Source: Spirogloea muscicola
Taxonomy: Eukaryota > Streptophyta > Zygnematophyceae > Spirogloeales > Spirogloeaceae
Reading direction: 5' to 3'
Assembly: GCA_009602725.1 (NCBI GenBank)
Contig: WELB01000326.1
Span: forward strand, 1 to 58,353
DNA length: 58,353 bases
Part shown: positions 35,029-51,870 of the stretch, in pieces
How the letters are laid out: the number at the start of each line of letters is the position of its first letter
How positions within the stretch are numbered: the first letter of the stretch is position 1
Made by a program: the position numbers and the translations under genes
The notes under the pieces: model-generated
What the model saw: the letters and a program-made list of their open reading frames with translations, nothing else
Database searches by the model: none
Told to the model about the DNA's origin: nothing

Positions 35029-36103
35029 CTTGAGGGGCACGCCGAGCTGGGAGCCGAAGGCCACAAGGGTTGTCGGCTGGGGAACTGTAACGCGTTGACT
35101 CCTCACGCAGGACCTGGCGGCAGTCCAGGCTGCCATGGACCCAGTTCCGCAGGGGCTATACCGCCTCCTTGAGAGGATGTTGGAGGAGCACCGCGCCCAC
35201 ATTGCCGAGATCCGCGCGGAACAGCGGCATGTGCAAGAGACCGATGCCGCGGGGCATCTGGTGCGCAAGAGCGGTGGCCACCCTGCGCATGGCCTTGCCA
35301 AGGCCCACGCACCATGGCAATCCTCCGGTCGGGACGACCGGGGTGGGCTGCAGTCCTGGCTCAGCGAGATGTCGGAGTGGCTCACTCCGATGCTGGTGGA
35401 GCACGCTCGGAAGGTGCTCAGCTCGCCGGACATTGGGCTTGGCAAGCGTCTCCTGCTGGAGGCAGGCAGATCTGCAGAGGCAGAGCGGGGGAGGAAGAGA
35501 TTTAACCCTAAGGAGGGCTCAAATGCTCGTTCCCACGGCGGCTTTCAGAAGCCACGCGTGACAGGTGCTGGCCCGCGGGTGGAAGGAGGTGTGACTGCTA
35601 TGGCTACGCGCCAAGAGCCACCAGCACAGGGACTGCCCGGCGGCAGGTCCACCTTCCTCGAGGCCACGTCCACAGCGGCCGATGGGCCGGGACACGGGCA
35701 AGCGGGAGTGCCTGACCCTTGCCTCAGAGAGCAATCTCATTCAGCCAGATGCACTCGCGCTGTTCTACCTTGCTGGCATTGCTTGCCCGTCAATCAACAT
35801 ACCGGTTGTGCTTTGTTGCTAGGTCTGGAGGCCGGAGGGCCTCTATTTGTGTGGGTTGCCCACAATGACTTGCAAGTGGCTGCTGATGTTTATCTGAGCT
35901 GGCATAAGTGCCGTCGGCCTGAAGAAGTGCTGTTCTTCATTGTGCCACAGAAGCGCGGCGTGATTGATCGAGCTTCGCTGGGGATGTCGCTGTTGTGCTC
36001 GCACGAGGCGGGACACAGGCTCCTTAGGCGTAGTGTCGATGCCACCCGGGTTAGGCCTTACCCGACAGCGGTCAGGGTATGTCGCTCGCACCCCAATCCT
36101 TGG
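35029..36103 (+). pseudogene. Gag of decayed chromovirus H
   Basis: Starting in the middle of gag, one frame (35135 on) gives VPQGLYRLLERMLEEHRAHI, AEQRHVQETDAAGHLVRKSG and HPAHGLAKAH (a gag module). A deleted capsid follows, ending LVEHARKVLSSPDIGLGKRL. A remnant knuckle region near 35600 is out of frame. Another frame downstream encodes the spacer that precedes protease (HNDLQVAADVYLSWHKCRRP), similar to the HSAAQMYLKWVNHH segment of element A. It is interrupted at 36103 by a solo LTR. Confidence 0.7.
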
Positions 36104-36692
36104 TGTAAGGAACCTGCGCCCTAAACATGCAGTTAGAGAGAGCAGTCCTTATTGGGTTCGAGCATAGGGGTTTGGGGGCCAACCCACTACACGAGGAAGC
36201 ACTAGCGCATAGCGCAGCGGAAGACAGGCCCTGTGGCGCCGCCTTGACGGCGACTCCACCTCCTGGGCGCAGGCCGGCGCAGCAGGCCCCGCAGCGCAGT
36301 GCGGCGGCGGCTGCGGCGGCGAGCAGCGGCATGGCTGCTCCGAGGCATCCCGGGCTCAAACTGTCTGCTGAGCCTCAGCCCCCAAGGCTCCTTGTGCTTC
36401 CCCGTGCCCCCCCCCCATCCCCCACCCAGGGGTGTGAGCGGGTCGCCCGAAGGCCCGCCTTGCAGCGGGCCCAAGATCTTCCGGTTTGAACCGGTGAATC
36501 ATCGAGGGGTATTTCGAATGGCGGGACCCGCCTCCGGGCGGGCCCTTGCGCGCCCAGCCAGCCCGCCACCTGCCGGGCCCCTTGCGCGCCAAGCCGGCCC
36601 GCCACCTGGCGGGCCCACTTGTCCAAAAGACTTCGGTCATGTAATGCAACAGAGCCATGTGGCTTAATTAACCAAACGGCTGGTTCATTACA
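36104..36692 (-). mobile_element. Solo LTR, family B (TSD CTTGG)
   Basis: 589 bp on the minus strand. It starts TGTAATGAACCAGCCGTTTG (minus) and ends CCTTACA. CTTGG is duplicated at 36099-36103 and 36693-36697. Hairpin GCCGTC/GGCGGC at about 36237-36252 and box CGCAGCGGAA at 36213-36222. It separates gag from protease of element H. Confidence 0.95.
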
Positions 36693-36697
36693 CTTGG

Positions 36698-37351
36698 TAG
36701 CAGTGTCCGTGGGGGACACACGATGCTATTTGAGGGGCTAATTGCTGAGGCACCGGCCAGGATCCTCATGGACTCAGGGGCCTCCGTCCCCTTCGTCAAT
36801 AAAATCTGGTGTGTTACACTGGCTTGCATTTGCAAGCAGATGGTCTGCCTAAAGTGACATTGGCCGATGGCCACCCAACCGATGTGTTGGGCCTGTGCAA
36901 GGTTCCCATTCGCATCCAGCAATGCAGAGCCGAGATGCCTTGTTATGCCATTGCGTTGACTGTCGCCTTTGATGTGATATTGGGAGGTGACTGGCTCTGT
37001 GCCACATCAGTATGCCTTGATTTTGAACGCCAGACTTGCACGGTATCACGTGGCGCATGGCGCTTTGTCCTTTGCAAGCAGATTCCCTGTGCACCGCCGC
37101 TGGCGGCAGGGGCTTCCATTCTGCTGTTCGCCGTGCAGATGAAGCGATTGATTTACAAGAACACTGTGCAGATGGCATTTCTTGTGATGGTGGCGTTGAG
37201 TGACGAGTCTCAGCCTGACTTGTGTGTGACTGCTGCGCATTCACATGGCGGGGTTCTTGATAAGCTGCTGGAAGAGTTTGCGGATGTGTTTCCCGACTCT
37301 CTTCCGGACGGTCTACCTCCTCACCGAGGTGTGGCTCATACAATTCCATAG
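36698..37351 (+). pseudogene. Aspartic protease region of element H
   Basis: From the ATG at 36723 the frame reads MLFEGLIAEAPARILMDSGA, with the retropepsin D-S-G-A-S motif, then SVPFVNK. A shift near 36810 moves to the frame 36809-37351, with VTLADGHPTDVLGLCKVPIR, AFDVILGGDWLC and the pre-RT segment EEFADVFPDSLPDGLPPHRG, and a stop after AHTIP. Divergence from element A is clear, so H is a distinct, older lineage. Confidence 0.8.
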
Positions 37352-38055
37352 GAGCCAGGCGCTCACCCGCCTTGCCGTCCCATGTACCGGCTGAGCCCTC
37401 TCGAATTTCGAGTAATGCAATCCCAGGTCGAGGACCTGCTGGCGAAGGGCTATATTGAGCCATCTCAGTTACCATACGGAGCACCTATCCTCTTTGTCTA
37501 AATGAAGGATGGCACTGTACGGATATGCATTGACTTTGAATAAGCTTACCATCAAGAACCGATATCCATTGCCTCGGATAGATGATCTGTTCGATTGGCT
37601 TGCAGGGGCTACTGTGGTTAGCTCCCTGGACCTGGCAAGTGAGTATCATCAGATATGAATCACGCCTGCGGATGTTCTGGAGTTGGTCCTCCTTACGCCG
37701 CTTGGACATTTTCAGTTCGAGGTGCTGAGCTTTGGTGTGACCAATGCACCGGCTACGTTCCAGGCGGTGATATCGAGGGTCTTTGGCCCCCTGCTCTACG
37801 ATTTTGTGCTGGTCTACTTGGACGATATACTGGAGTTCAGCAGAATGGCTTAGGATCACGTGAAGCACCTGCGCCGAGTGCTGCAGTTGCTGCGTGAAAA
37901 TCAATTGTATACCAAGAGGTCCAAGTGCGCATTCAACCAGCCAGCGCTGACATATCTCGGGCATGTCGTGGGCAAAGACGGCATACGTGTCGACCCCGAG
38001 AAGACTTCGGTCGTACGGGATTGGCCTGTGCCACGGACAGTACCTCAGTTAGCCA
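37352..38055 (+). pseudogene. Reverse transcriptase of element H
   Basis: [37 protein letters not shown], then several stops and shifts. VLVYLDDILEFS-type catalytic sequence lies near 37810-37835, and CAFNQPALTYLGHVVGKDGI and DWPVPRTVPQL precede the break at about 38050. It is heavily decayed, and RNase H and integrase are absent. Confidence 0.8.
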
Positions 38056-38334
38056 CAGGTGATGAACATCTGTTGATGTGCTTGCCTTGTACTTGGCCAC
38101 TCAGGCCCTCCACCACTCACTACGCACTACATTCCTCGAAAGGCCAGCCGGGTTGGCTAGAGTGAATACAAATTATCTTGACTCTTTCCAGAGTATAGAA
38201 TGGCTGTGAAAGGCCCGAAGAGAGTGCGTAACGTTCCCACCATATGTAAGGTGGTAAAAGAGGACGATCATGTTTGTAACTAATATTTGTTAGGGTACTG
38301 ACGCGGGGATGTCCAGAAGTAACGGATAAGCCCA
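38056..38334. other. No feature recognised
   Basis: A short junction region between the broken RT and a LINE fragment. Confidence 0.4.
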
Positions 38335-38596
38335 AAAGCAGGCCCATTGACGCTCGCCGGAGGCGGCAGCTAGACCACAGCCAGCTTGCAGATATGCAAG
38401 TCGAGGGCAAAAGCCCACTGGAGGCATATGGAAGGCTCGTCCGTAACACGTGCGCTAGGGAGCCAGCGGCATCGAAGGCAGCTTGCTCGCCGTGCCGCCG
38501 GTGGGACAACGCGTTGTGTGAAGCTGGGTCAAAGAGGTCCAGCCAATGAGACTCGAAAGCCCAGTGGACGGTGACGGGCCGGAACGTGCAAAACAC
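38335..38596 (-). mobile_element. Degenerate LINE 3' fragment
   Basis: The minus strand reads VHWAFESHWLDLFDPASHNA and RRHGEQAAFDAAGSLAHVLR, then shifts frame. This is the shared LINE tail without a recognisable hairpin or terminus. Confidence 0.65.
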
Positions 38597-39130
38597 GATT
38601 TTGCATTATGTGACTTCGTTTGGACTCGTTGGATGTCCGCTTCCGAAAGCAGTCAGCTAGAGAAAGTCGGAAAAGAGAAAGAGTGGCTATTTCCAAAAGC
38701 AGGGCGCAAGGTCTATGAAGAGTTAGCCCAGACATAGTGGACGAGGTCCAAGGAGCCCGATAATTGCAAAACCACACGCTATGCCCTGCTTGGCTTGCCC
38801 CTCCAAGGGGTGGGCCCTGAGGGCGAGCAAGAGACACACTCTCGGACGAGCTAGGGAAGTGTGATTCTCAGACCGACGTTAGCTTGGTATCAGAGGCATT
38901 TTGCAACTATCTGCCTGTATTTTTTCGGGTTTCTTGCGGCTAATGATGCAAAGATGTTTCTGATGCTCTGGCCTGAGTCTCCCTTCGAAGTGAAGCATCC
39001 TGTCTTGGTCCGTTGCTTCTCAGCGGGATCTACAGGTGCTGACCCGCTCGGTAAGTACGAGTCAGCACACCCATCACCTCACAGGCCTTTTACCTTACAC
39101 CCATCACTTCGTAAAACCGGCCAATTGCCG
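38597..39130 (+). mobile_element. LTR end, PBS and leader of another gypsy unit
   Basis: GGGGTGGGCCCTGAGGGCGAGC (about 38806-38828) resembles the LTR core box. TTGGTATCAGAGG at 38884-38896 is a PBS. The following leader (TAATGATGCAAAGATGTTTC, CTCTGGCCTGAG, GAAGTGAAGC) aligns with the leaders of A and B. The LTR end has decayed (GTTAGC). No gag of this unit is recognisable. Confidence 0.6.
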
Positions 39131-39699
39131 TTGCAACTCCGAATCGTCGCGATCCACATATGGCAAACCGTGCAAAGCTACCAAGGGACTTCGAATCCAC
39201 CGGATTGCGCTTGCCTGCTCCTTGGCAGGATAAAGTTGTTTACCATTACAGCTTGAGGCAGAGTTTGGCTCACTGGCCAACTCCTAGCCGACTCCACCGA
39301 GCCATGTCATGCCCGGGCGCAGAGCGTCGTTGTAGCGTCGGCTAGAGGGCGGTTGGGCGGAACCGACCAGGGCTAACCCTGGTTGGATATCTCAGGTAGG
39401 AAGGTGGTATAGGGAACCTCAGCGGGGGTAACCCATGGGGTGGCTCGCTGGGTAGGGCGCACCCCGTATGGGCGGGCTGGAGTGTTCCGGGCTGCCGAGC
39501 ACTAATTCCCTGTACCTACTGCCTTGACCTCCCCTCGCGGGGTGGGCTCTTAAGAGATCGGACGGCGGAGAGAGGCCATCTCTCCGCAAGTAGATACTCG
39601 CACCTCGCCTCTCTCTCGCTTGCGTCGTCACCACCGCCGGGGGATCTCTAGTCGCTTCGGCCCCCTGACCAACCTGGCCCGGAGCTTCAACCTGCGCTG
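39131..39699. other. Unassigned GC-rich sequence
   Basis: No domain or repeat boundary is recognised. It could include the LTR or 5' UTR of the methyltransferase element, but no matching 3' LTR was found downstream of the PHD finger. Confidence 0.35.
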
Positions 39700-39765
39700 C
39701 GCCAAGGAAGGAGGAAGAAGAGGCGGAACATCGCCTCCGCTACGGAATGGGTGTAGAGATGGTAG

Positions 39766-40527
39766 ATGCAGCGATGGCGGGGCGGCATGAGCGTGGTAGC
39801 CGCCAGCCTCTGGGGGGTTGCAGATCGCTTGGCGGGTAGAGAGCACGGCCACCGTGAGGAGCAGGGCGGGCGTTACCCATTGTCGTTTGCGCGGCTGCCG
39901 GCGGTGACTGCAGACGGGCCAGCGGCGGTCGGAGAGGGCGCGGGGCAAGTCTCCGCGCGGCAGCTAGCGGCCGCACTTATGAGCACGCCCTTGCTGTGCT
40001 TGGCAAGCGTGGGCTGCTCAGAGTCGGTGCTGAGGAAGGCGCTGCAGCAGCACCTTCCTGACGGGCTGGAGGGCGACGTGGCGGGCTCGAGTGAATCGCT
40101 CAAGGCTGCAGGGGGGGCGAATTCGCCAACCGCCTTCAATAATCAATTAGGGGCTTCCGAAAGGGGCCCCTGCAGGTCGTCTCTATCTGAGCCTGCACCC
40201 AATGATCGGGATGGGGTGGAAGAAGTTTCTGCGGCAGTTCTGCATGCGGTGCCGGCTGCAGTGGCACAGTCGCATTCACCGAGCACTGGGGCCCTGGGGG
40301 CTGCCCATACAGGGGGGAGCCGGGCGCTCAAGGCCGCGCGGGGGCCGGACACCCCAACTGCCTGCAGCGCCAAATTCAGGGGCTCCCGAAGGGGGCCCCT
40401 GCAGGTCGATTCCACTCCTTCTGCCTGCGCCAGCATCCTTGGGCGAGGAATCGGTGGAAATGGAGCGACCACCAAGCACGCGTGTCGTTGGGCCGGCCCT
40501 TGCAGGAGAGAGCCCGTCGCTGCCTAA
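39766..40527 (+). CDS. N-terminal (gag-like) ORF of the methyltransferase element
   Basis: A 253-aa open frame with no recognised capsid domain. It contains two copies of the internal linker repeat (residues about 112-140 ESLKAAGGANSPTAF... and about 187-250 ALKAARGPDTPTAC...), separated by an acidic helix (VEEVSAAVLHAVPAAVAQ). The position upstream of protease suggests Gag. The start used is the first Met and is unverified. The stop lies just before the protease segment, in another frame. Confidence 0.45.
   Translation: MQRWRGGMSVVAASLWGVADRLAGREHGHREEQGGRYPLSFARLPAVTADGPAAVGEGAGQVSARQLAAALMSTPLLCLASVGCSESVLRKALQQHLPDGLEGDVAGSSESLKAAGGANSPTAFNNQLGASERGPCRSSLSEPAPNDRDGVEEVSAAVLHAVPAAVAQSHSPSTGALGAAHTGGSRALKAARGPDTPTACSAKFRGSRRGPLQVDSTPSACASILGRGIGGNGATTKHACRWAGPCRREPVAA
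40099..40180 (+). repeat. Internal linker repeat, copy 1
   Basis: CTCAAGGCTGCAGGGGGGGC, then CCGAAAGGGGCCCCTGCAGG and TCG. It is about 80 bp, matching the first part of copies 2 and 3. Confidence 0.75.
40324..40523 (+). repeat. Internal linker repeat, copy 2
   Basis: GCGCTCAAGGCCGCGCGGGG through CCTGCAGGTCGATTCCACTC, CATCCTTGGGCGAGGAATCG and CACCAAGCACGCGTG to GTCGCTG. About 200 bp; it aligns over its full length with copy 3. Confidence 0.85.
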
Positions 40528-40530
40528 GCG

Positions 40531-40630
40531 GCGGGTGGCGGAGGCATCACCCCGGATGTGGCGCTTGTGGATAATAGCCGCGGCCTCATTACCTTCAATG
40601 GCGCGGCGCCGCTACGGGTGATGTTGGATA
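40531..40630 (+). pseudogene. Protease N-terminal half of the methyltransferase element
   Basis: ITPDVALVDNSRGLITFNGA and APLRVMLD lead up to the retropepsin active site, where the coding is cut by the TIR element at TA (40629-40630). Joined conceptually to 41945, the motif would read L-D-M-G-A-Q rather than the usual D-T/S-G. Confidence 0.75.
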
Positions 40631-40653
40631 CAGTCATACCTCGTTACAGGCAC
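40631..40653 (+). repeat. Left TIR of the pogo-like element
   Basis: CAGTCATACCTCGTTACAGG then CAC. It pairs with the right TIR at 41920-41942. Confidence 0.9.
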
Positions 40654-41919
40654 CCACGGATAAGGGCACATCCTCGATAGTGGCACCATTTTGCGGGAAG
40701 CACTTTTTTCCCCAGGTAGAAGTGACTCGATAAGGGAACGTGCCTTGATGTACAGGCACAGTTTCGGGGCAGATTTCCCCACTAGAAGTGCCTATATGAA
40801 AAAAACTCAACGTTTCTCTTATATTCTCTAGAGGCCGGGGGTTCATGAACCGGGCGCGAGGGTTTGGGCTTTACTGCCTCGGAAAGCAAGCGCAGAGCGG
40901 CTCATTACCGTCTCCCCGACGGCCCCCACCAGTCTCCATGTCTCCCAGATGGCCCCCACCCTTCTCCAGGCCACGGCGTCACGAGGCCCTCTTTGAGACC
41001 GCTGCTCGCCGCTAGTAGCGCCGCTTCCAGGCGGTCGTCGACGGCTTCGTCTTCGTCGCGGAACGTACCTCGTCGACCTGAGAACAGCTTGTGGACCGAG
41101 AAAGTGCAATTCTTGTGCGAGGTAGTGAGAGACACACCTCATCAGCATCAGAATTCGCTGGTCTTCATTTTTCATTGAGCTTGCAAGGCTCACCAACATC
41201 GAGCACGTCTTGAGGCTAGGTAGAGCTGAAATGTGCACTCCCTCGCTTCCTCCTTCTACTTTCAGGTGCGCTTGCTTGCCCTCTTATATGCAAGCAGGGC
41301 ACCTATGCATGCTCGGGCCATATGTGCCCTTGCCGAGGCTGGTCCACAATGTAGCCCACATCGCACTTTGCTTGTCTTAGCCAACCCCATCGACTTGCGG
41401 TCCCATCTAATGCGTCCTTACATCACCCTTGATATTACTAGTCAGCCTGCCTACACTTGTATGCGAGCTTACAGTCCCACCTCCTATCGGTGTCCTGCGA
41501 TCTTGCATCGTTGCATTGAGGGCGCGATGAGCGATGGTAGCCGCTTATTTAGGGTGCTTGGCTCCATCACAATGTGTCTTTTGTACTTGCTCACAAGTGA
41601 ATTGCCATCTCGATTGCCGTGTTTCTCGAGCGGCTTCCCCTCCTTCGCCCCCATGGCCACCTTGAGAGTGGTTGCTACCATTGCTTGCGTTTGGGTGTCT
41701 CTTTGTGGAAGAAGTGGATGCCCATGTGGGCGATTGTGGTGCCAAGAGAATGATGCTTGCAACCACGTTGCCACCCGAGCTTTGCTCATTCGCCAATTTT
41801 CCATATAATCTTATATATTGCTGATTGTCACGGTAGAAGCACGTTTGGGGGCAATAGTGCCTCTAACACGGACACAAGCACACCTCGATATAGTCACATA
41901 TTTCGCCAAACAGGCCGAC

Positions 41920-41942
41920 GTGCCTATAACGAGGTATGACTG
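41920..41942 (-). repeat. Right TIR of the pogo-like element
   Basis: On the minus strand CAGTCATACCTCGTTATAGG then CAC; one mismatch to the left TIR. Confidence 0.9.
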
Positions 41943-41944
41943 TA

Positions 41945-42220
41945 TGGGGGCACAGCCAGTGCTGCTTGACCACAGCATGGCGCGGCAGCTGGGGCTGCGC
42001 GTGCAGGACTTGCAGCCGTCCCCATCGCCATCAAGACGGCAACAGGAGGCGTCTCAGTGGGCCTTCGCCAGACCAAGGAGCCCATCCGCATCACAAACAA
42101 CAAGGGTGGTCCGGATGAGGTCAGCCAGCACCTCCACTGCTTGCTGACGGAGGCGACTTCATACGACGTGCTCCTTGGGACGGAGTTCCTGTACCCCTGT
42201 GGTGTTAGCATTGACCTATG
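41945..42220 (+). pseudogene. Protease C-terminal half of the methyltransferase element
   Basis: After the TIR element the frame gives MGAQPVLLDHSMARQLGLRV. A shift follows near 42010, to AAVPIAIKTATGGVSVGLRQ, TKEPIRITNNKGG and LTEATSYDVLLGTEFLYPCG. The last part is the second conserved segment of retropepsin-like proteases (..YDVLLG..FL...G). It ends just before the methyltransferase region. Confidence 0.8.
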
Positions 42221-43540
42221 GGAAGAGTTAGCGAGATGTCGCCCGGGGGCGGCGGAGAGGGGCGTCAGGTGGAGATCCCACTGCAGCTGGTGGCTACAGC
42301 GGAGGATGGGGCCGCATTCGCCTGCTACGGAGAAGCAGCATGGGTGGGTAGCGACTTGTGTGACATGCCGCAAGACGAGGCGGTCACCACCCCACTGGCG
42401 CCCGTGCGGTTGGGAGCAGCTGCCGCTGGCCACAGGCCCGTGGTGCAAGCACGGCAGGTGGAAGAGCTGGTGGACCGTGCGTGGCAGCAGCTACCCCTGG
42501 TGGCGCAGGAGCTGCCAGCGTGTTAACCGGCGGTTGTGCAGCTGCACGGAGAGCCGCTGGTGGAGAGTACAACGATTGAGTGGACGATCCCGCACAGCAG
42601 GGTTGTTTTTTTGGAGCTCTTTGGCGACATCGCCACCGGGTTGGCGGCGGTGCTGGCCAATGGCGTGCGGGTCCGACGGTACGTCTACGTTGACCCGGAT
42701 CCGGTGGCGCAGGCGGCAGCAGCGCACCACATCCGGCGGCTGATGGACCAGTACCCAGACTTGCTGACCTCGGAGGCCATCAAGGGGTACCTCACCACCC
42801 TGCCGGCTGACATCCAGCTGGTGGGCCCACATCACTTGAGGGGGTTGGGACAGGTGGATTTGGTGATTGCAGGGTGGGGTTGCCAAGGGCATTCCAGCGC
42901 TGGTGCAGGCCGGGGGTTGGATGACCACCGCTCACGGCTCTTTGGGGAGCTGGAGCGTGTTTTGGCGCTGCTGCAGGGAGGGCAGGAGGCCCCCCCAGCA
43001 TACGTGTTGGAGAACGTGCCATCAGGCGACGACCACCGCGAGAATGTGCGGCGTGCCTTCCAGGTGGTGGAGACCCACATTTGGCGCGGTGTGCCTCTGG
43101 ACGCAGCTGCTGTGGGCAGCCGTGCGCACCGGCTGCGAATGAAGTGGACCAAGCCAGAGTTGGTGGCAGCTGCGGTCGCGTTAGTCAAGCGCCCAGCCGG
43201 GCTGTTAGTGGCAGACATATTGGACCCGGGGAGGGTGCCTCAGCCAGTGACGAGGGACGACATTCCTCCATACGCGCTGTGCAACAAGGTGGGGCAGCCA
43301 CAGGCGGCGTTGCCCACGCTGGTGAGCTACCCGTCGTCTTATGCATTCAGGAATGGAGGCCAGGGCATGGTGTGGGACAACACCACGCAGCGCCTGGAGG
43401 AGCCCCGTGCCGACGAGCGGGAGCGGGCGCTGGGCTTCCCGTCAGGCACAACAGCAGCTCCTGGGCTTACCGAGCGGCAGCGTTGGAAGCCGTAGGGCAG
43501 GCTATGGACCTGAGGGCTCTCACGTGGGTGCTGGCAGTAG
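42218..43540 (+). pseudogene. C5 cytosine DNA methyltransferase domain in pol
   Basis: Would transfer methyl from S-adenosylmethionine to cytosine C5. Numbering from Met 42536: motif I FLELFGDIATGL (25-36); acidic residue in YVYVDPD (49-55); motif IV VIAGWGCQGHS with the catalytic Cys116 at 42881-42883; motif VI LENV (158-161); motif VIII SRAHRLR (195-201); motif IX-like EEPRADERERALGFPSGTT; motif X VGQAMD in the +1 frame after a shift near 43490. The GIATGL motif is of the kind seen in Dnmt3/DRM enzymes. The Pro before the catalytic Cys, nearly invariant in the family, is Gly here. Upstream, the same frame (42218-42526) is continuous except for one TAA at 42527-42529. The region lies between protease and RT, so it would be part of the polyprotein. 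Confidence 0.88.
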
Positions 43541-44113
43541 GCTTTGCCGCGCAGCGGCGCCAGCAGGCAGCGTGGCAGCTGGCGCAGGGGCTCTACGTGC
43601 AGTGGGCGGCGCGCGCAGGCGCCGGCGGCTTCCCACTTGGGGGGGGAGTAGAGTCGCAGCACGAATTGGTGGCGCTCAAGGCCGCGCGGGGGGCGGACTC
43701 CCCGACTGCTTTCAGCGAGAATTCAGGGGCTCCCGAAAGGGGCCCTGGCAGGTCGATTCAACTCCTCCTGCCCGCGCTGGCATCCTTGGGCGAGGTATCG
43801 GTGGCCATGGTGCAGCCACCAAGCACTCGTGCCGTTGGGGGCGGTTCTTGCAGGAAGGAGCGCGTCGCTGTACGGGGCCCAGCAGCAGGAGGCTGGGGGG
43901 GGGGCCAGCGTAGCAACCACAGCAGGTTGAAGTGGGAGCAGGGAAGGAGAAGCTGCCCCACGAGTGGGTGTGGGCTAGGAGTTGTCCAACGAGGAGCGGA
44001 AGCATTGTATGGATTTGCTGGAGAGGCACCGGCTGAATTTTGCCTTCTCAATGGCGGAGTTTGGCACCTGCCAGTAAGGGGAAATAACAATTGCTCTGAC
44101 CACGGCAAAGCCT
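43541..44113 (+). other. Methyltransferase-RT spacer with linker repeat copy 3
   Basis: Coding continues in the +1 frame for some distance (VLAVGFAAQRRQQAAWQLAQ), then enters linker repeat copy 3 (43672-43872). A Gly-rich stretch follows, and a short pre-RT segment (KPVYRRRHMLSPVEWA) starts just before 44114. No other domain is seen. Confidence 0.5.
43672..43872 (+). repeat. Internal linker repeat, copy 3
   Basis: GCGCTCAAGGCCGCGCGGGG...CCGAAAGGGGCCCTGGCAGG...CATCCTTGGGCGAGGTATCG...CACCAAGCACTCGTGCCG...GTCGCTG, about 200 bp, collinear with copy 2. Confidence 0.85.
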
Positions 44114-45142
44114 GTGTACCGGCGGAGGCATATGCTCAGCCCGGTGGAGTGGGCGCTGGTGCAGGCGCGCTGTGAGGAGCTAATGCAGGTGGGCCTCATT
44201 GAGGAGTCGGAGTCGCAATACGCGGCCCCGACGGTGATGCCGGCGAAGAAGGACCTCTTTGGCCAGTGGACGGAGAAGAGGATGTGCAGGGACTACCGCG
44301 CCCTGAATAAGGTGACTCAGCCCGATCGCTTTCCCATGCCTACCCCGGAGGAGATCTTTGATGAGCTGGGGGCAGCGTGCGTGGTCAGCGTCTTGGACCT
44401 GCGTCAGGGTTTCAATCAAATTGGGATCAAGATGGAGGACATGGCGAAGACAGCTTCCTGGGGAGCGGAACGGCTCTACCGTTGGACGCGTATGCCATTC
44501 GGGCTGCGCAACGCCCCGGCCAGATTCCAACGAGTCAAGGACCAGGTCTTGGCGGGCTTGCGCTTTGCCAGATGTTACATTGACGATGTGTTGGTGTTTA
44601 GCACAACGGTGGCAGAGCACGTGGTGCACGTGGAGGCGGTGCTGGGGAGAATTGGGGCGTCGGGCATGCAGTGCCATCCCGGCAAGTGCCGGTTCCGGGG
44701 GGGCACGGTATCGTATTTGGGACACGAGGTGTCACCGGGAGGGTTGGGCGTGCAGCGGGCGAAGGTAGACGCCTTGCTGCGCTTGCCAGCTTTTACGGAC
44801 ATCAGCAGGCTGCGGCCCTTCCTGGGCCTGGCAACTTACTATCGGCAGTTTGTGAAGGGCTTCTCCGCCGTGGTCAAGCCGCTGAACGAACTACTGAAGA
44901 AGGGGGAGCCGTGGGTGTGGACAGCGCCGCGGCAGGAGGCGTTCGAGGAGGTGAAGGAGCGCCTGTCATTTGCGCCGGTGCTGAGGCGGCCGGACTACTC
45001 CAAGCCGTTCCACCTACTCACGGACTGGAGCCGGCAGGGGCTAGGAGCCGTGTTGGTGCAGGAGGAGGAGACGGGACAGGAATATGTGATCGCGTATGCG
45101 AGCCGGTCCAACAACGCCGCGGAGGCTAACTACAGCTCCTAA
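44114..45142 (+). CDS. Reverse transcriptase-RNase H of the methyltransferase element
   Basis: An intact 342-aa frame. Ty3/gypsy RT blocks in order: LIEESESQYAAPTVMPAKKD, MCRDYRALNKVTQPDRFPMP, VVSVLDLRQGFNQI, RMPFGLRNAPARFQ, the catalytic C-Y-I-D-D-V-L-V-F (about 44574-44600), GTVSYLGHEVSPGGLGV and LRPFLGLATYYRQFVKGFSA. RNase H follows, with HLLTDWSRQGLGAVLVQEEE and VIAYASRSNNAAEANYSS, then a TAA at 45140-45142 where related enzymes continue YS.Y.GE...VVWAV. The region after the stop continues the RNase H (FVLVTDHQPLKWI) in the next frame. This RT is clearly a different lineage from elements A, B and H. Confidence 0.92.
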   Translation: MYRRRHMLSPVEWALVQARCEELMQVGLIEESESQYAAPTVMPAKKDLFGQWTEKRMCRDYRALNKVTQPDRFPMPTPEEIFDELGAACVVSVLDLRQGFNQIGIKMEDMAKTASWGAERLYRWTRMPFGLRNAPARFQRVKDQVLAGLRFARCYIDDVLVFSTTVAEHVVHVEAVLGRIGASGMQCHPGKCRFRGGTVSYLGHEVSPGGLGVQRAKVDALLRLPAFTDISRLRPFLGLATYYRQFVKGFSAVVKPLNELLKKGEPWVWTAPRQEAFEEVKERLSFAPVLRRPDYSKPFHLLTDWSRQGLGAVLVQEEETGQEYVIAYASRSNNAAEANYSS

Positions 45143-45480
45143 GAGGGCGAGTGACTTTGCGTTGTGTGGGCGGTGGCGCACTTCTGTCCCTACTTGTACT
45201 GCAGAACATTCGTGCTGGTCACCGATCACCAGCCGTTGAAGTGGATTATGACGAACCAAAAGCTGACAGGAAAGCACGCAAGATGGGCGTTATCCTGCAG
45301 GAGTACACCTTTGAGATCCGTCATCGTGCGGGGGAGGCACACTTGGACGCGGACGGCCTCAGTCGCAATCCCAACCCAAGTACTCAAGACAGGAGTGTGG
45401 CACGGGCGGACCACGACCGAGCGGAGGTGGAGCTGCCCGCGTGGATGGGTTCGGCGATGCTGCTGCAGTTGCTTGACACG
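45143..45480 (+). pseudogene. RNase H C-terminus of the methyltransferase element
   Basis: CVVWAVAHFCPYLYCRTFVL and VTDHQPLKWIM (45160-45270), then after a shift LQEYTFEIRHRAGEAHLDAD and GLSRNP. These complete the RNase H and the characteristic RH-integrase junction of gypsy elements. The two frames and the preceding stop show decay. Confidence 0.85.
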
Positions 45481-45483
45481 ACC

Positions 45484-45600
45484 GAAGGCCGCGCGGGGGG
45501 CGCATACCCCGACCGTTTGCAGCGAGACATCAGGGGCAACCGGAAGGGGCCCCTGCAGGTCGATTCCACTCCTTCTCCTGGCGCTGGGGCGCGTGCATGT
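45484..45600 (+). repeat. Internal linker repeat, copy 4
   Basis: AAGGCCGCGCGGGGGGCGCA...CGGAAGGGGCCCCTGCAGGT...CGATTCCACTCCTTC. It lies between RNase H and integrase and aligns with the first half of copy 2. Confidence 0.8.
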
Positions 45601-47113
45601 GACGTTGGAACTATGCAATGCGGGATGAAGTCATCTCTGGCGTGGCGGCACAGTCCGACCACCGTGGCGTCTCAAATGAGCGGCGGCGCGGCCGGAGCCG
45701 GAGCTTCGGGAGCGTCGGGAGCGGGGAGCGGGAGCCAGCGATTGAAGAACGCGGGGGTAGCGAATAGCCTGGCCGCCGTGATGGAAGAGACCTCCAAGTG
45801 GTACTGCCGCCGTGGAGCCATGCCGCAGCTGCTAGGCTTTGCCACTAGCGATGTTGCACTGGAGGGCGGTGTCGTGGCAGGAGGCAGATGGACTACATAT
45901 ACCACTCCGAGGCTCGTGCCAGGGGAGACCTCCCAGCAGGCGGCTGGGGGTGATCCGGACGTCTGGAGCGACATGGAGGTGCTGGAGTACCTCCAACGGC
46001 CTGAGCATCCTGTTGGGGAGGAGCAAGGCGAGCAAGGACCGTGTGCAGCGGCGGGCGCAGTGGTACCGGTGGCGCGAGGGCCACCTTCTGCGGTTGAAGA
46101 AGGATGGTGGGGAGCGAGTGGTGCTCAGGCCAGCGGAGCGGACGCCGCTGGTGCTGCAGCAGCATGAGATGCTGGGCCACTTTGGGGTGAAGAGGACCCA
46201 CAGCCTGGTGGCGTGTGGTCACTGGTGGAAGGGGATGGCCAGGGATGTGGCTGCGGTCGTGGCGCGCTGCCAGGCTGCGACCGCGTCCGAGCCAACCTCA
46301 CGGTGCGCAGCGTGGAGCTGCATCCACTCCCCATCAACGGATTCTTCTACAGGTGGAGTCTCGATCTTGCAGGCGAGCTGCCACTGTCGAAGCGTGGACA
46401 ACGCTACATTCTTATCATGGTCGAGCACGCAAGCAAGTGGGTGGAGGTTGTGGCGATTCCAGACAAGTCCAGCTCGCTGATAGCGGCTTGTTTCCTGGAT
46501 TGGGTGTTGTGCCGCTTTGGGGCCTGCGCTGAGGTGCTTACCGATGGCGGTAGCGAGTTCCGCGGTGCGTCCGACGAGCTGTTGGAGGAGGCCCTGATCG
46601 ACCACAGGATAACCTCGCGGAACACTCCGCAGGCGGACGGGCTGGCGGAACGGATGGTTCAGACAGTGAAGAAGGGACTGCAAAAATTATTTCTGGAGAG
46701 GGACACCAGGGATTGGGATCTTTTCCTCCCCTGATTGCTCATGGGGTATCGAATGAGTAAGCAGGCGGCGTTGGCGAGCTACTCGCCGTACTTCTTGCTC
46801 TTTGGCAGGCATCCTCTGCTGCCAGCTGCCATCCGACCGCGGGTGGAGCCAGTGGTGGACATGAATAGCCCAGGGCGCTCTGCGAGGAGCGCGGGAGGCT
46901 CTTCCGCAGGGTAATGCCGATGGCGGTGGACAACCTGGCGGTGGCGCAGCATCGCGACAACCTGCGTTACGCGCAGGTACGGTCGGGCAAGTACCAGCCA
47001 CGGGCGATGAAGTTCGAGAAGGCCGACTTCGTATACGTGCAGCGCCAGCAGCGCAGCACCTTGGACGCGGGTGTCCGGCGGGTCGTCCTGCAAGTGAAGG
47101 AGGTGAGGCCCAG
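45601..47113 (+). pseudogene. Integrase of the methyltransferase element
   Basis: A pre-integrase segment (DVWSDMEVLEYLQRPEHPVG) is followed by the zinc-finger region WREGHLLRLKKDGGERVVLR, HEMLGHFGVKRTHSL and WWKGMARDVAAVVARCQ (46050-46280). After a frameshift comes the catalytic core: RWSLDLAGELP (first Asp), EVLTDGGSEFRGA (second Asp) and NTPQADGLAERMVQ (Glu), with 34 residues between the last two acids. A stop follows DWDLFLP (46734). Later frames give SPYFLLFGRHPLLPAAIRPR, VAQHRDNLRYAQVRSGKYQP and FVYVQRQQRSTLDAGVRRVV. At least three frameshifts or stops are present. It is interrupted by the solo LTR at 47114. Confidence 0.85.
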
Positions 47114-47953
47114 TGTGATGACCCTAAGCCCTATACCGGCACTTAGGGGTTAGGACGTCCTTGGTTTCGGTCGCTGGGATTTAGGGACAAAGCCCCAGCA
47201 CAGTGAAGCACCACGTGTACCACGCAGCGGAATACCTTGCCCTGAGGTGCCGCCGACAGGCGGCGACTCACCTCACAGGTTCGGGCCAGCACCTGTCCTC
47301 AAAGGAGCAGTCACAGTCTTACCACAGGAGAGCCGATGAAGGTCCGCGACGACACGATGCGGCGACGGGCTGCAGCAGCAGGCAGCAGCAGGGCTGCGTC
47401 GGCGGTGCTGCGGCAGCAGGCGGCAGCAGGGCTGCGCCTTTCTCTCGCGGGCTTCACCGATGTTGACCGGGTGACCCGACTTTGCTCTCAGCCCTACTTG
47501 TAGTGTGCTTCATGTGCCACCCTCCCCAGGGGTCTCTCGGAGGCTCGTCCTAGGGCCCACCTCGGGAGCCGGACAAGCGAATCTAGTACGAGGGCAGGCC
47601 ACGCGGCTCCCTTCCGGAAGCGGCGGCCGTCCTGCGGCGCCGCCGAGCGGCGCCGCCAGTGGGTCACGGGTGTGGCGCGGCGTCACTGGCGCGCCACACG
47701 TGTCGCATACACATCATTGCGAGTACGGCAGATTCAGGAATACGCCGAGGAGCTTCGCTCCGGAAGTCCAGGATTCGCCACCTCTGCTGGAGGCGGCGCG
47801 CCTGCACGTCATATCGTCAGCAGGCGCGTCACACCGCGCGACACCTTGCGTGGGTCGCCCGCGCGTCGCACGCGTCAGGCACGTGCGCGTCAGTGGTTAC
47901 ACGGTAGCGCTTAACTCGGAGTTAAGCGTCCCGTAACGGCGGGGACGTTTACA
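47114..47953 (-). mobile_element. Solo LTR, family E (TSD CCCAG)
   Basis: 840 bp; the minus strand starts TGTAAACGTCCCCGCCG and ends CTTAGGGTCATCACA. CCCAG occurs at 47109-47113 and 47954-47958. Perfect hairpin GCCGCCGACAGGCGGC (47249-47264) and CGCAGCGGAA box (47223-47232). It sits between the integrase C-terminus and the PHD region. Confidence 0.95.
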
Positions 47954-47958
47954 CCCAG

Positions 47959-48231
47959 TGCCGTGCTGCTGCTGCAGGCCCAGTGCGGATCCACTGTTGC
48001 GGAGCACCAGCGCAACTGTGCGCCGTGCCACCTCCCGGACCTGGATAGCACTATCGACCAGACCTTGTCGTGGACAATGGAGGGGATGAGGATGAAGTGT
48101 GTGACGGCTTGAACACTGAGCCGCCCATGCTGCTATGCGACCGTTGCAACGAAGGGTGGCACACTGGCTGCCTGCAACCACCTCTTGCTGAGGTGCCGGT
48201 GGGGCAATGGTTTTGCCCTTGCTGCGCATAG
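47959..48231 (+). pseudogene. C-terminal PHD finger of the methyltransferase element
   Basis: After the LTR, frame 2 reads GSTVAEHQRNCAPCHLPDLD. A shift near 48060 leads to DNGGDEDEVCDGLN, PPMLLCDRCNEGWHTGCLQP and PLAEVPVGQWFCPCCA, then a stop. The PHD pattern (Cys4-His-Cys3) is clear: LLC, DRC, WH, GC, WFC and CC are present. The first ligand, expected three residues before V-C, is Asp here. PHD fingers read the histone H3 tail; here the domain takes the place of the chromodomain of the other gypsy elements in the window. Confidence 0.85.
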
Positions 48232-48563
48232 CGCTGAGTTAGGATGCTTAACCCTCAGAGGATGCAGCTGCCTCAGTCCAGGCAGCTGGGGCGCGGTGTG
48301 GTGACTCTTCTGCCACATTCTTTGCAGGTCTGCTCATCTGGTAGTGAGGCCATGCAGGGCAGGCTGCTGCTAGCCAAGCAGAGTCCTGGCCTGTAGGCGG
48401 AGCTTCAGGTGTGGCACTTCGACGCATTGTGAGCGCTATACGGGCAGGCACGACAGCCAGCTGCACTACACCAACTTGCGGCTCTTACCTTGCGCTAAAT
48501 GTGTACCCACCAATCTGGCTTACTGCTTTGCGCTGTCGAGGCTCCCCCGTTGACCTTGCAAAT
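48232..48563. other. No gene; probable 3' UTR of the methyltransferase element
   Basis: Non-coding sequence after the PHD stop. No polypurine tract or LTR was recognised. Confidence 0.4.
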
Positions 48564-49200
48564 ACGGGCTAGCCATTCACGGTCATCACCCCCTTCGTAA
48601 TAGCTCCTCCTTTCCTACGCAGTATGGTCGCTCTCTCAGCTGGAATACTAACTTTGGCTCATCAGTGCAGCACGGAGCAGTGCTGTTTTGCTTTCTCAAG
48701 AGATTCCTTCGACTTTTGCAGAAAGGCTTGACCATCGGTGTTCACGTTGTTATAGGTGATTTTAAGATGCTTCTCAAATCTGAGAGAAGATGGAGGAAAG
48801 CCGTCAAATCCATGAAGCTTGTCAAAGTAAACTCCACAGCTGGTACGGTAATTCTATCTTCCCGTGACCTTTGATTGCTGACGGGCTAGCCATTCACGGT
48901 CATCACCCCCTTCGTAATAGCTCCTCCTTTCCTACGCAGTATGGTCGCTCTCTCAGCTGGAATACTTACTTTGGCTCATCAGTGCAGCACGGAGCAGTGC
49001 TGTTTTGCTTTCTCAAAAGATTCCTTCGACTTTTGCAGAAAGGCTTGACCATCAGTGTTCACGTTGTTATAGGTGATCTTTGAGATGCTTCCCAAATCTG
49101 AGAGAAGATGGAGGAAAGCCGGTCAAATTCAGTAAGCTTTTCAAAGTAAACTCCACAGCTGGTACGGTAATTCTATCTTCCCGTGACCTTTGATTGCTGA
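48564..49200 (+). repeat. 317-bp tandem duplication
   Basis: Two adjacent copies (48564-48880 and 48881-49200) begin ACGGGCTAGCCATTCACGG and end CCGTGACCTTTGATTGCTGA. They differ at only a few positions and small indels (for example CATCGGTG/CATCAGTG), so the duplication is recent. The unit includes TGGGCTAGCC/ATTCACGG-like LINE 3' UTR sequence, and a LINE tail follows at 49203. Confidence 0.92.
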
Positions 49201-49202
49201 GC

Positions 49203-49855
49203 TTACGACTTGGTTACCACAGATGGGGTTGAGCGCTTTGACCCCGGGCTTTCAGCTTCGATAACGGGCATGCAGCAGCGGACGCCAATCTGGCAAAGAG
49301 GCAAAGTACACGGACCATCCGGAAGGGGACGAATTGCTCCACACTGGCCATCGATGTGCACGGTGCTTTTGGATCTCAGTGGCTGGACCATTTGGCCCGG
49401 CTTGTGCGCCACGCTGTGTCTCGCAGGCGGGGCGAGCAGGCTGACTTCATTGCGCGCTGGCTCACCAGCGCATTCTTTCATATGCGCCTGTCCATTGCCC
49501 TCGAAGCGGTGCTTGGCTTACGCCTTGCAACTGCAAGCTGGCTGTGTTCTAGTTGCCGCCTCTGGCTATCTTAACAAGACTGCTTTCCACTAGTCATTTT
49601 GGCTAGTGGCCTCGAGGTCACAGAGCTATCATTCTTCCTGGCACTTTATAAGTGAGATGTTAGCACTCTCCGGCAAATTTGGGCCTTGTCCGCTATTGTT
49701 GGGCTTGCTCGCTGTGCAAAGCCCCCGCTTCTACAGAAGTGCTCACTTTGATTATCTTTCGGCAAGAGCTTACTCTCTTCTGGCTGCCTTTCCGCCCTGT
49801 CCATTCTATTCGTGGTGGCTTTCCAATGCCCTCGCCCCCTTTGGAGAATGCTAAG
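49203..49855 (+). mobile_element. LINE 3' copy
   Basis: VTTDGVERFDPGLSAS opens the C-terminal domain, then after a shift DVHGAFGSQWLDHLARLVRH, AVSRRRGEQADF and FFHMRLSIALEAVLGLRL. The 3' UTR contains TTGGGCCTTGTCCGC and a degenerate TGGGCTTGCTCGCTG in place of the hairpin. Decayed. Confidence 0.75.
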
Positions 49856-50430
49856 TTCATTCTTTTGAAAACTGGGCATGCAAACGCCGCTCACGGCAAA
49901 GAGGGCAAGTTTCGGGACCCATTCGGAAGGAGACGAGTTCGTTCCACTGGCCATCGATGTGCACGTGGCTTTCGGGTCTCAGTGGCTAGATTGTTGACCC
50001 GACTTGCGCGCCGCACTGTAATTTGCAGGCGGTCGAGCAGGCCGACTTCAATTCCGCTGATTTGCTATCGCAGGCTTTCTGCAAGCCCCTGTCCTTCTCC
50101 GTCCAGCGGTCCTTGGCCAACGCCTTGCATCTGCATGCTGGCCGTGCTTTAGTTGCAGGCTCTGACTTTCGTCAATGGGACTGCTTGCTAGAATTTCAGC
50201 AGCTAATTTCCAAATTGCGGCTGCTATCAGAGGTTACTGAGTGACCATCCTTCGTGAACTCTACTTCATTGTGTGTTTCGACGCTTCCCGGCCCCTTCGG
50301 ACCTTGTCCACTTTTTTCGAGCTGGCTTTCACGGCCCTCGCGCCCCCCTCAGATGAGCTATTTTATTTCCGAACCTGTGGGCCTTGTCCATTTTTGCGAG
50401 CTGGCTTTGCAGGCCTCGCCTTTGTCAAAG
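49856..50430 (+). mobile_element. LINE 3' copy
   Basis: It begins abruptly, then DVHVAFGSQWLD, a shifted segment, QAFCKPLSFSVQRSLANALH and LHAGRALVAGSDFRQWDC, ending at the stop near 50243 after RLLSEVTE. The 3' UTR runs to about 50430 with TTGTCCATTTTTGCGAGCTG. Confidence 0.75.
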
Positions 50431-50880
50431 CTAGATGACACAGCCATTGCCTTCCATCGTACGAGCTGTTCCTTGTTGTCCAGATCCTTCCCCTTGCCAT
50501 CAAGATTCACAGGGCATTCGGCGCTTGGTGGCTTGAGCACTTGCACCAGCTAGCGTGCAATGCGGTGTCCCGACGACACCAAGGGCAGCAGGCCGAGTAC
50601 TACGATGCCGACTCTCTCGCCCAGGTGTTTTGTGTGCGCTTGTAATTATTGTTGCAGCCATCAACTGCACTCGCGTTGCATCGGCGTGGCGGTCGCGCCT
50701 TGGCTGCCTTTAGACAAGGGACCTGCTACCCTGAGACTAGTATCTCTGACATGCAGCTGCTCACCAGGGGGGTATTGAGCACCCAGTGACCACTTAAGAC
50801 GCTGTGCCTGAGCGCTGTTCTGGCCCCTGCCCCTTTAAATTTCAGTCATTCATTTACTGAGCTGGCCTATCACATCCATC
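50431..50880 (+). mobile_element. Decayed LINE 3' copy
   Basis: In mixed frames: KIHRAFGAWWLEHLHQLACN, AVSRRHQGQQAEYYDADSLA, QVFCVRL, then LALHRRGGRALAA and ISDMQLLTRGY followed by TGA near 50780. Many indels. Confidence 0.65.
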
Positions 50881-51289
50881 GGCCTTTGCTGGTAGGAGTA
50901 TTTTGCATAATCACAGACATCGGGCTCTACTGGGAGTAATTACTTACTTTGTTTCCCTGTTTCGACCCCTCCATCACATTGGGCTGGCCAATCACAGCCC
51001 TCACCCCATATGGAGTAATTGCTCCTCATCTCATTTGCGGGCCTTCCATTTCCCTTTGACTCTTGTTCAGTATTTTAGTACACGGATGCCGTGCACCGGA
51101 GCAGGCGGTGGTGCGGGTGCGCTGTTCTTCCACGTGTCGCTGTGCACTTGTCGACTAGAGTTATTGAGCCCACTTGCCGAGGTCTTCGGAGATTACCACT
51201 GTTATTTTTGCCATCCAGCATCCTAAGAGATCTTTTCCATTGCTTTGGCGGGGCCTTCCACAGTTACTGCTGTCAAAGTGGAAAATCTC
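50881..51289. other. LINE-derived or unassigned sequence
   Basis: Phrases such as GGGCTGGCCAATCACAGCCCTCACCCC resemble the LINE 3' UTR hairpin and terminus, but no coding tail is readable. Confidence 0.4.
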
Positions 51290-51870
51290 TTTCTCTATTA
51301 GGAAGACACGCCCGTCGTGCCGATCTTGTCGGCAGCGCGCTGGGCGTGGGCCCCCGGAATATTACAAACGTTGTCACCACCGACTGCTCTTATTCCAGGA
51401 GCTCCCAAGTGATCGGTAGAGGCAGCAGGCTATGCAGTTCGCCAAGCGGCGGGCGCCAAGGGAGCAAGTACGCTGACCACCTCGCTGGCGACACGTGTGT
51501 CGCCCTCGCGGTTGAAGTCCACGGGCTTTTGGAATCTGGTGCTCGACTTCCTCTAGCGACTTGCGCAGCCAGCTGTGTCGCGATGTCAAGAACGGCAGAG
51601 CGAGCAGCCCAGCTTCACAACCGTATGCCGTCGGGTCGCGGCTCAGATTGACAACATGCGACTTGCAGTATCCCAGCAGCGGTCCTTAGAATCTGCCGTC
51701 CACTTGCGTGCAGCTCGTGCCTTGGCTCTGCCTCCCAATTCCGTCAGGCCAACGCCTTTCCGCCCACTACTTAAACTGACTTGCACTTGCTGACTCGAGG
51801 CAATTGAGCGCCTCTTGCTGACGTCTGGATCTCTTCATCCGGCCCTTTACGGCCTTGTACATTCCTAACC
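51290..51870 (+). mobile_element. LINE 3' copy with upstream domain
   Basis: It starts farther upstream than most copies: RRADLVGSALGVGPRNITN and VVTTDCSYSRSSQVI, then KYADHLAGDTCVALAVEVHG. Later frames give NMRLAVSQQRSLESAVHLRA and LLTRGN near 51800. The RRADL...GGGPR...VVTTD segment is the part of the C-terminal domain that precedes FVPLAVDVHG. Confidence 0.75.

Follow-up and report, generated by a model that had tools for sequence, protein, structure and literature searches.

A decayed Ty3/Gypsy-type retrotransposon, lying at about 39.7-48.46 kb of the 58,353-nucleotide stretch of DNA that we analysed (the window), is a member of a large family in the 153-Mb genome of Spirogloea muscicola whose copies carry a predicted Dnmt3-class cytosine methyltransferase (MTase) and, between MTase and reverse transcriptase (RT), a conserved in-frame stop. 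We put at roughly 0.7 the probability that the window element is a dead member of a streptophyte-algal family which has kept a captured Dnmt3 between protease (PR) and RT, ahead of a programmed leaky stop, and which packs this Dnmt3 at Gag-like amounts.

The element in the window

A preliminary description, made from the sequence of the window, had recognised a Gypsy-like retrotransposon with its own C5-MTase and the order PR-MTase-RT-RNase H (RH)-integrase (IN)-PHD on one strand. Profile and homology matches agree, placing each domain where it had been described, on the forward strand and behind a remnant of gag (Table 1). The span given there, 39700..48231, locates the element correctly but ends slightly short, as element-like sequence continues to about 48456; 29 of 46 matches from outside the window fall on this 3' terminal stretch, and most end at 48455-48458. 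The domain order of a polyprotein is retained, but not a single open polyprotein. The window copy is dead, because MTase motif X is out of frame with the remainder of the domain, RH has an in-frame stop, the integrase has a frameshift, foreign repeats are nested within the element, and gag has lost its upstream half or has it rearranged. In copy L017, the stretch matching 39711..40627 comes after the CCHC knuckle, and the DTGAQP form of the protease is present in both L017 and L023. The first nested insertion has inverted arms at 40628-40646 and 41927-41945, with element homology restarting at 41946. An Rfam search of the window returned no match.

Table 1. Features of the element, in window coordinates
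Feature	Position	Strand	Basis or remark
gag C-terminal/linker remnant	39711..40627	+	DNA matches to L017, L019, L022, L032 and L033 begin at 39711
Linker repeats 1 and 2 (103 nt; second also as 193-nt form, 40330-40522)	40102..40433	+	Sites matched in L017 and L018
Nested insertion, foreign repeat with 19-bp inverted ends	40628..41945	+	Parts match many contigs at 86-97%
Aspartic protease remnant (DVLLGTEF...)	42024..42245	+	tblastn, 44% to intact protease of L023
Predicted Dnmt3-class C5-MTase without motif X	42527..43495	+	PF00145, 33.1 bits (cut-off 22), E 5e-8
MTase motif X region (VGQAMDLRALTWVL)	43440..43560	+	Out of frame in window copy
Linker repeat 3, between MTase and stop	43678..43780	+	Repeat comparison
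Conserved stop with context TAG CAA CCA, putative type I readthrough signal	43911..43919	+	Between MTase and RT
RT and first part of RH	44078..45142	+	RVT_1, E 1e-24; 57-62% to L023
Remainder of RH, past in-frame stop	45155..45328 (end approximate)	+	Profile and homology
Linker repeat 4, between RH and integrase	45485..45587	+	Repeat comparison
DDE integrase, one frameshift	46115..46743	+	Profile and homology
Nested insertion between integrase and PHD	47113..47953	+	L018 aligns to 41946-47113 and 47954-48274, no intervening sequence
PHD finger	48049..48228 (second listing 48094-48231)	+	PF00628, 39.4 bits, E 6e-10
3' terminal stretch common to family-1 copies, B-like repeat	48229..48456	+	DNA matches

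The four internal linker repeats noted earlier are all present, starting at 40102, 40331, 43678 and 45485, and L018 has them at all four equivalent places, L017 at three. Among the genome matches listed for the repeat, 37 of 50 sit on contigs listed for the family (40 of 44 candidates scored). Their reading as a conserved peptide was rejected, the reading frame differing from site to site.

Copies in the genome

The preliminary description had held that absence or random placement of the MTase in other copies would mark it as a host fragment. Many further copies were found in which the MTase keeps a constant position; it lies directly upstream of RT in at least 36 of 49 related RT clusters and downstream in none. 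This is a lower bound, because the clusters (built from the 59 RT rows, out of 150, that reach an identity of at least 50%) were compared with a hand-picked part of 250 MTase rows. The order gag(CCHC)-PR-Dnmt3-[stop]-RT-RH-IN-PHD holds across two subfamilies, between which the MTase is about 40% identical. The PF00145 profile has 71 matches over the genome, host genes and element copies counted together. An RT tree of 14 rows places the window copy with family 1, at an unstarred fork, and a metagenomic protein, P0037, on a long branch whose position is unsure.

The MTase is under purifying selection (pooled dN/dS 0.27 over 20 pairs; RT, 0.18 over 11; RH, 0.19 over 19). In close pairs (dS < 0.3) its dN/dS is 0.58, which indicates that many copies are decaying.

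Class and active site of the methyltransferase

Compared with the known MTase classes, the enzyme is predicted by both profile and fold to be of the Dnmt3 class. DNMT3A gave the best profile score (76 bits, with HaeIII at 47, DRM2 at 35, DNMT2 at 31 and DNMT1 at 15), and the best 50 Foldseek rows for an AlphaFold model (pLDDT 89.7) are all DNMT3 enzymes or DNMT3 complexes. In the profile alignment the motifs follow the order of DNMT3A, with no DRM-like rearrangement. A single-sequence query had HhaI as its top match, over a short stretch only.

The catalytic motif reads GWGCQG in the window (42872-42889), with ENV at 43010. Among copies matching the search pattern, GWECQG is present in at least 8 others (7 of family 1, and L020) and GFPC in at least 15 of family 2. 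To judge from these residues, the Glu (Gly in the window) that replaces the catalytic-loop Pro in family 1 might weaken catalysis. For the idea, raised in the preliminary description, that the element may methylate its own copies, CpG-to-TpG change is a weak and indirect measure; in two close copy pairs it is only in slight excess (3.4% vs 2.5% and 2.9% vs 2.4%).

A conserved stop between methyltransferase and reverse transcriptase

The preliminary description overlooked a conserved leaky-type stop that divides the MTase from RT. An in-frame stop is present in 33 of 36 junctions, at 43911 in the window, and is the family's usual state, not damage. CAA follows in 34 of the 36, the codon is TAG in 26, and the exact sequence STOP-CARYYA occurs in 29; some subfamilies have TAG and others TGA, and codon +2 past the stop varies among TTA, TCA, CCA and CTA, all of them YYA. 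These 36 junctions are not independent, since the copies share ancestry. The stop is replaced by a sense codon in L025 (TAC), L039 (GAA) and L047 (TTA), and four further copies keep it in a changed context (L029, L043, L045 and L057). Outside the 36 rows stand L049 and L051, whose junctions are degraded, L058, masked by Ns, and L017, L019, L022, L024 and L032, which gave no alignment spanning the junction. L048 has another junction on its minus strand, with a stop followed by QSQP, that was left out of the count.

The motif is found in all nine family-1 junctions located by homology, the query L018 included, against a background of 8 among the 3128 stop triplets on both strands of the window. 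Over 31 non-redundant rows its conservation is 1.48 bits per nucleotide, against a mean of 0.41 and a maximum of 0.73 in 79 other sequence windows. Family 2 alone gives 1.42 (mean 0.57, maximum 0.80), and family 1 gives 1.94 with other windows close behind (maximum 1.76, mean 1.26). Pooled dN/dS over the first 62 codons past the stop is 0.42 (156 pairs), so protein reading resumes directly downstream.

CARYYA after a stop is the type I readthrough signal (PMC3542737, PMC5382211), and UAG with CARYYA ahead of an in-frame extension is present here. We therefore infer with good support, from sequence, that the conserved TAG/TGA-CAA-YYA acts as a programmed leaky stop. As it lies between MTase and RT, the MTase falls with Gag ahead of this probable leaky stop, and a stop of tobamovirus type suggests that the MTase is synthesised along with the particle shell and not with the copying enzymes.

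Terminal repeats

A simple search of window positions 36000-52000 and of L023 found no direct LTRs. Comparison of copies revealed DIRS-like split repeats in the order A-coding-B-A-B, TG...CA ends, and target duplications of 4 bp (ACAC in C65, GTGC in C328, GGCT in L023). The C65 copy has all four repeats, C328 and C17 have B-A-B, and C328 also has the 5' A; the layout is known from these other copies, the 5' end of the window copy being lost or rearranged. Insertions of the forms A-coding-B-A-B and A-coding-B are both present, and the B/A junction is palindromic (GACA-GC-TGTC). Membership of the DIRS order was rejected, as L023 has rve and 4-bp target duplications and, by Pfam, no phage integrase.

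Discussion

In the mechanism that we propose, most ribosomes would stop at the TAG/TGA to give Gag-PR-Dnmt3, and a few would read through and add RT-RH-IN-PHD. Dnmt3 would therefore reach amounts like those of Gag and enter the particle along with the genomic RNA. With weaker support we infer that Dnmt3 in the particle may methylate new cDNA before it is integrated, and that the PHD finger may steer the integrase to histone-marked chromatin. The fullest version of this model is tentative, and on balance we doubt it. In that version Dnmt3 would be a particle component by way of a tobamovirus-type leaky stop and would methylate the element's own cDNA, which would integrate through the DDE integrase and PHD reader from circles cut at the B/A junction. 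A 2-LTR circle cut there would yield an A-coding-B-A-B insertion and a 1-LTR circle an A-coding-B insertion.

Other explanations can be offered for the MTase and for the stop. That a fragment of a host MTase gene was trapped by chance would fit the 13 of 49 RT clusters without an MTase in the rows compared (at one, C142:374349, the upstream stretch is partly masked), but we give this almost no credence. Copy number and fixed position refute it, and purifying selection and the same domain set in P0037 also speak against it; the MTase is a domain of the element. A reading that we consider unlikely, yet the most plausible of the alternatives, is that the domain has lost its DNA-methylating activity and is retained to bind RNA or DNA or to help in Gag assembly. 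The active site of family-1 copies is ECQ instead of PCQ, and KnitGypsy-Dnmt3 of Klebsormidium nitens gave no methylation in yeast, a result that its authors call inconclusive (PMC5890265). Against this, an alignment of 13 proteins shows no change at the catalytic Cys, the Glu and Asn of ENV or either Arg of RxR, PC is retained in family 2, and SymbioDIRS-Dnmt3 is active (PMC5890265).

It is less probable still that the stop is the ordinary end of ORF1, with RT-RH-IN-PHD translated after reinitiation, from an internal start or from a spliced RNA. A terminal stop of ORF1 is unremarkable in itself, and in 23 of the 30 readable rows (of 36) an in-frame ATG first occurs 17-47 codons past the stop, and 10 of these rows have it at codon 35. 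The site of this ATG, however, differs among copies, and 5 of the 30 rows lack one over the length examined; moreover, the six bases past the stop are held to CARYYA as their surroundings vary freely, and the downstream frame is in use from its first codon. Very improbable, in our judgement, is that shared ancestry without selection explains the conserved stop and CAA-YYA. All copies do descend from a single ancestral element, and the family-1 junction is similar throughout, but over the 31 rows the equally old flanks have varied freely, the stop is kept though its codon switches between TAG and TGA, and the +2 codon shifts yet stays YYA. A programmed leaky stop remains our preferred reading.

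The preliminary description had suggested that such an element might be undescribed in this lineage. Our literature search found none reported for the Spirogloea lineage, but a Gypsy element with a Dnmt3 and the same repeat layout, the intronless KnitGypsy-Dnmt3, is already published for the charophyte Klebsormidium (PMC5890265, consulted in part). Like the Spirogloea family, it has a Gypsy RT, RNase H, DDE integrase and a Dnmt3-class DNMT in its coding region, DIRS-like A-coding-B-A-B repeats, and purifying selection on the DNMT (here 0.27 over 20 pairs, < 0.2 in K. nitens). Compared by description, its DNMT is placed in the Pol ORF, whereas the Spirogloea family has the conserved stop between MTase and RT and an ORF2 that ends in a PHD finger; the words 'readthrough' and 'PHD' are absent from the main text of PMC5890265. 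No sequence named as K. nitens was among the matches listed in our protein searches. Retroelement-borne DNMTs also occur in Symbiodinium, as SymbioDIRS-Dnmt3 and SymbioLINE-Dnmt; SymbioDIRS shares the A-coding-B-A-B repeats and its domain order also varies, but it is a DIRS element with a tyrosine recombinase, and SymbioLINE-Dnmt is a LINE, in contrast to the DDE integrase (rve) and 4-bp target duplications seen here (PMC5890265).

P0037, an ENA metagenome protein of 1938 aa, likewise combines a Dnmt3-like MTase with Gypsy RT-RH, integrase and PHD (39% identical to L023 in IN-PHD, 32% in RT, 31% in MTase), but has the MTase between RNase H and integrase and a single open frame. It alone was among the matches listed for the MTase region of P0035; an MTase profile search found at least five proteins, and IMG/VR gave four weak loci (26-37% identity over short stretches).

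UAG with CARYYA ahead of an in-frame extension is shared with the type I readthrough of tobamoviruses, benyviruses and pomoviruses (PMC3542737, PMC5382211), but here it lies in a retroelement, at the Gag-PR-MTase/RT junction, and is UGA in some subfamilies. As at the gag-pol UAG of Moloney murine leukaemia virus, an in-frame stop divides the polyprotein and the downstream enzymes would, judging from the Spirogloea sequences, be made by readthrough; the viral stop follows gag and has a pseudoknot, whereas that of the Spirogloea family follows PR and MTase and has a CARYYA-type signal (PMC5009743). We found no literature report, for such elements, of a conserved in-frame MTase-RT stop with STOP-CARYYA, of a PHD finger behind the integrase, or of a permuted repeat layout combined with TG...CA ends and target duplications of 4 bp.

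Altogether, this family adds a second charophyte lineage, after Klebsormidium, to those with Dnmt3 capture. It also provides an example of a DDE-integrase element in which permuted repeats occur with target duplications, and is relevant to the integration route of such elements. If Dnmt3 is encoded with Gag ahead of a leaky stop, it would be a structural-level product and not a rare catalytic one; this would favour a role within the particle, acting on cDNA, and touches on the question of what use a retrotransposon has for a DNA methyltransferase.

Results

The MTase-bearing elements of Spirogloea muscicola form a family and are not a chance event. Across 153 Mb of genome in 471 contigs, the C5-methyltransferase (MTase) query gave 125 matches, fragments counted. 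Matching EukProt proteins, named for example SM000026S08863, carry coordinates that agree with contigs C26, C39 and C77. The window's own family (family 1) shows roughly 55-92% amino-acid identity in the MTase and its copies are mostly broken; a second family (family 2), near 40% identical in the MTase, has long open frames. At the family-2 locus L023, on contig C2, ORF1 (1411 aa) encodes a CCHC knuckle scoring slightly below the Pfam cut-off, a protease with DTGAQPIL, and the MTase, and ORF2 (1037 aa) encodes reverse transcriptase (RT), RNase H, H2C2, rve and a PHD finger. Mapping the L023 domains on fetched loci revealed the order gag-protease-MTase-RT-RNase H-integrase-PHD in sufficiently long copies; L024 and L027 have lost parts of the element, and the order cannot be read at loci that are tangled (L032 and L033 are examples). 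Among the 49 RT clusters at ≥50% identity, the MTase lies upstream of RT on the same strand in at least 36, with a median gap of 495 nt, and downstream in none. The MTase, read in the preliminary description as an element domain from a single copy, is therefore such a domain at a fixed place. A 14-row tree places the RTs of three further Gypsy elements, 31-38% identical to L023, in a group of their own.

In the window, the one-strand set proposed earlier was confirmed, comprising a protease-like remnant, C5 MTase, RT, RNase H, integrase and PHD finger. This copy is dead: the last MTase motif is out of frame with the rest, a stop lies inside RNase H and a frameshift inside integrase, two nested foreign repeats interrupt it, and gag lacks its upstream half. 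Short DNA matches to sequence upstream of gag in L018, and also to L022 and L034, extend left to about 39305, so that rearrangement of the 5' end, instead of a plain cut at 39711, is possible.

With a profile of 13 MTase sequences, DNMT3A topped the PDB at 76 bits, ahead of the bacterial enzymes HaeIII (47) and HhaI (46), DRM2 (35), DNMT2 (31) and DNMT1 (15); with the L023 MTase as single query, HhaI scored slightly over DNMT3A, across a shorter stretch. The predicted fold has a pLDDT of 89.7, and the best 50 Foldseek rows are exclusively DNMT3 enzymes or complexes. By profile and fold, then, the comparison with Dnmt1, DRM and other classes suggested at the outset favors DNMT3A. Throughout the alignment there is no variation at the catalytic Cys, at Glu-Asn of ENV or at either Arg of RxR. 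Pooled dN/dS is 0.27 (20 pairs), falling from 0.58 at dS under 0.3 (nine pairs) to 0.20 at dS 0.7-1.2 (six pairs), a trend that fits selection during activity and decay once inserted. The catalytic loop reads ECQ in eight copies besides the window (seven of family 1, plus L020) and PC[EGQ] in 15 family-2 copies. The metagenomic protein P0022 likewise has GWECQG. A close relative of the MTase, P0003, comes from a 2.4-kb contig of a Candidatus Obscuribacterales MAG; our guess is that it is probably a eukaryotic element binned among bacteria.

The two L023 ORFs share one frame, with TAG between. Over 36 junctions, the stop site is TAG in 26, TGA in seven and sense in three, followed by CAA in 34 and then by YYA in 34; exact STOP-CARYYA occurs in 29, with seven exceptions. 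Information content over the nine motif bases is 1.48 bits per base (31 non-redundant rows), versus a mean of 0.41 and a maximum of 0.73 in 79 neighbouring windows. For family 1 alone it is 1.94 bits, versus at most 1.76 in other windows, a small contrast because these copies are close kin. When family-1 junctions were sought by DNA homology, nine were placed, query L018 counted, and all have the motif; as background, CARYYA follows 8 of 3128 stop triplets in the window.

Features of the window and of related loci
Position	Strand	Feature
25420-27494; 29375-31008		Additional Gypsy-type elements of a different RT clade, with RT, RNase H and integrase; no MTase match beside them in the L023-domain mapping
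36803-38050		Another Gypsy-type remnant (RVP_2 protease, RT), adjoining the element on the left
40628-41945		Nested insertion with 19-bp exact inverted ends, its parts in many genome copies; looks like a DNA transposon
42872-42889		Catalytic-loop Pro replaced by Gly in the window, by Glu in family 1
43911	+	Stop and context, TAG CAA CCA (junction reading)
48564-49200		Unit of ~318 bp, tandem duplicate (95-98%), downstream of the element
L023:4026-4314		Linker between protease and MTase: tract rich in Ala and Thr, derived from a GCT/GCC/ACT repeat
L023:9769-10000 and contig C2 beyond		Satellite-like repeat, ~230-250 bp, after the L023 insertion
Contig C91:239487-242218		Several oppositely oriented MTase fragments, two of them equal in score and identity, which points to an array that is inverted or duplicated

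Discussion

UAG-CARYYA is described in reviews (PMC3542737, PMC5382211) as the tobamovirus-type readthrough signal, which can act on UGA too. Given this context, the stop between MTase and RT is quite likely leaky, with programmed readthrough. The downstream frame continues from the first codon past the stop, and five of 30 readable rows have no ATG in the stretch examined. A separate downstream start of ORF2 is given slightly more room by an ATG at codon 35, the first in ten of these rows (17 to 97 in others), and this slightly reduces our confidence in the explanation of the element as a whole, which we put at about 0.70.

Both ends of the element are readable in three copies only. Those on contigs C65 and C328 start with TGTCG, end with GACA and are flanked by 4-bp duplications (ACAC and GTGC, respectively); L023 has the duplication GGCT. 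With repeat A of ~1 kb and repeat B of ~200 bp, the C65 layout is A-coding-B-A-B, C328 and C17 have B-A-B on the 3' side, and L023 has A-coding-B only. One internal deletion is common to both A repeats of C328, indicating that both were copied from one template. A G-run (polypurine tract) precedes the first B only, and the B|A junction reads GACA-GC-TGTC in C65, C328 and C17, lying within a 16-bp palindrome in C17. Together, tract position and junction suggest that the cDNA repeat is probably B-A, with integrating ends internal to it. The two insertion forms found would result if 2-LTR or 1-LTR circles were cleaved at B|A, and recombination between repeats would also produce them.

The domain type and repeat layout are the same as those of KnitGypsy-Dnmt3 of Klebsormidium nitens (PMC5890265), so this kind of element is already known; PMC12344493 repeats that DNMT3 occurs in streptophyte and dinoflagellate retrotransposons. 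The suggestion that the arrangement may be undescribed in this lineage thus stands for the lineage, for which the titles and text passages surveyed gave no report of a Dnmt3-bearing element, but not for the kind. The same limited survey, mostly of papers outside subscription, yielded no report of PHD in LTR elements, of a CARYYA or UAG-CAA stop in retrotransposons or, KnitGypsy-Dnmt3 aside, of such split repeats in Gypsy elements. The metagenomic protein P0037 (1938 aa) has the same domain set, but its MTase sits between RNase H and integrase, indicating that the place of the MTase can differ among elements, though it is fixed here.

The sequences establish the architecture, its conservation, the selection and the ends; the mode of action is inferred. 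Readthrough of a leaky stop would make the MTase part of the abundant Gag-protease product and, with about an even chance, bring it into the particle. It is possible, though somewhat less likely, that the PHD finger would read chromatin; more tentatively again, the MTase would methylate the element's cDNA.
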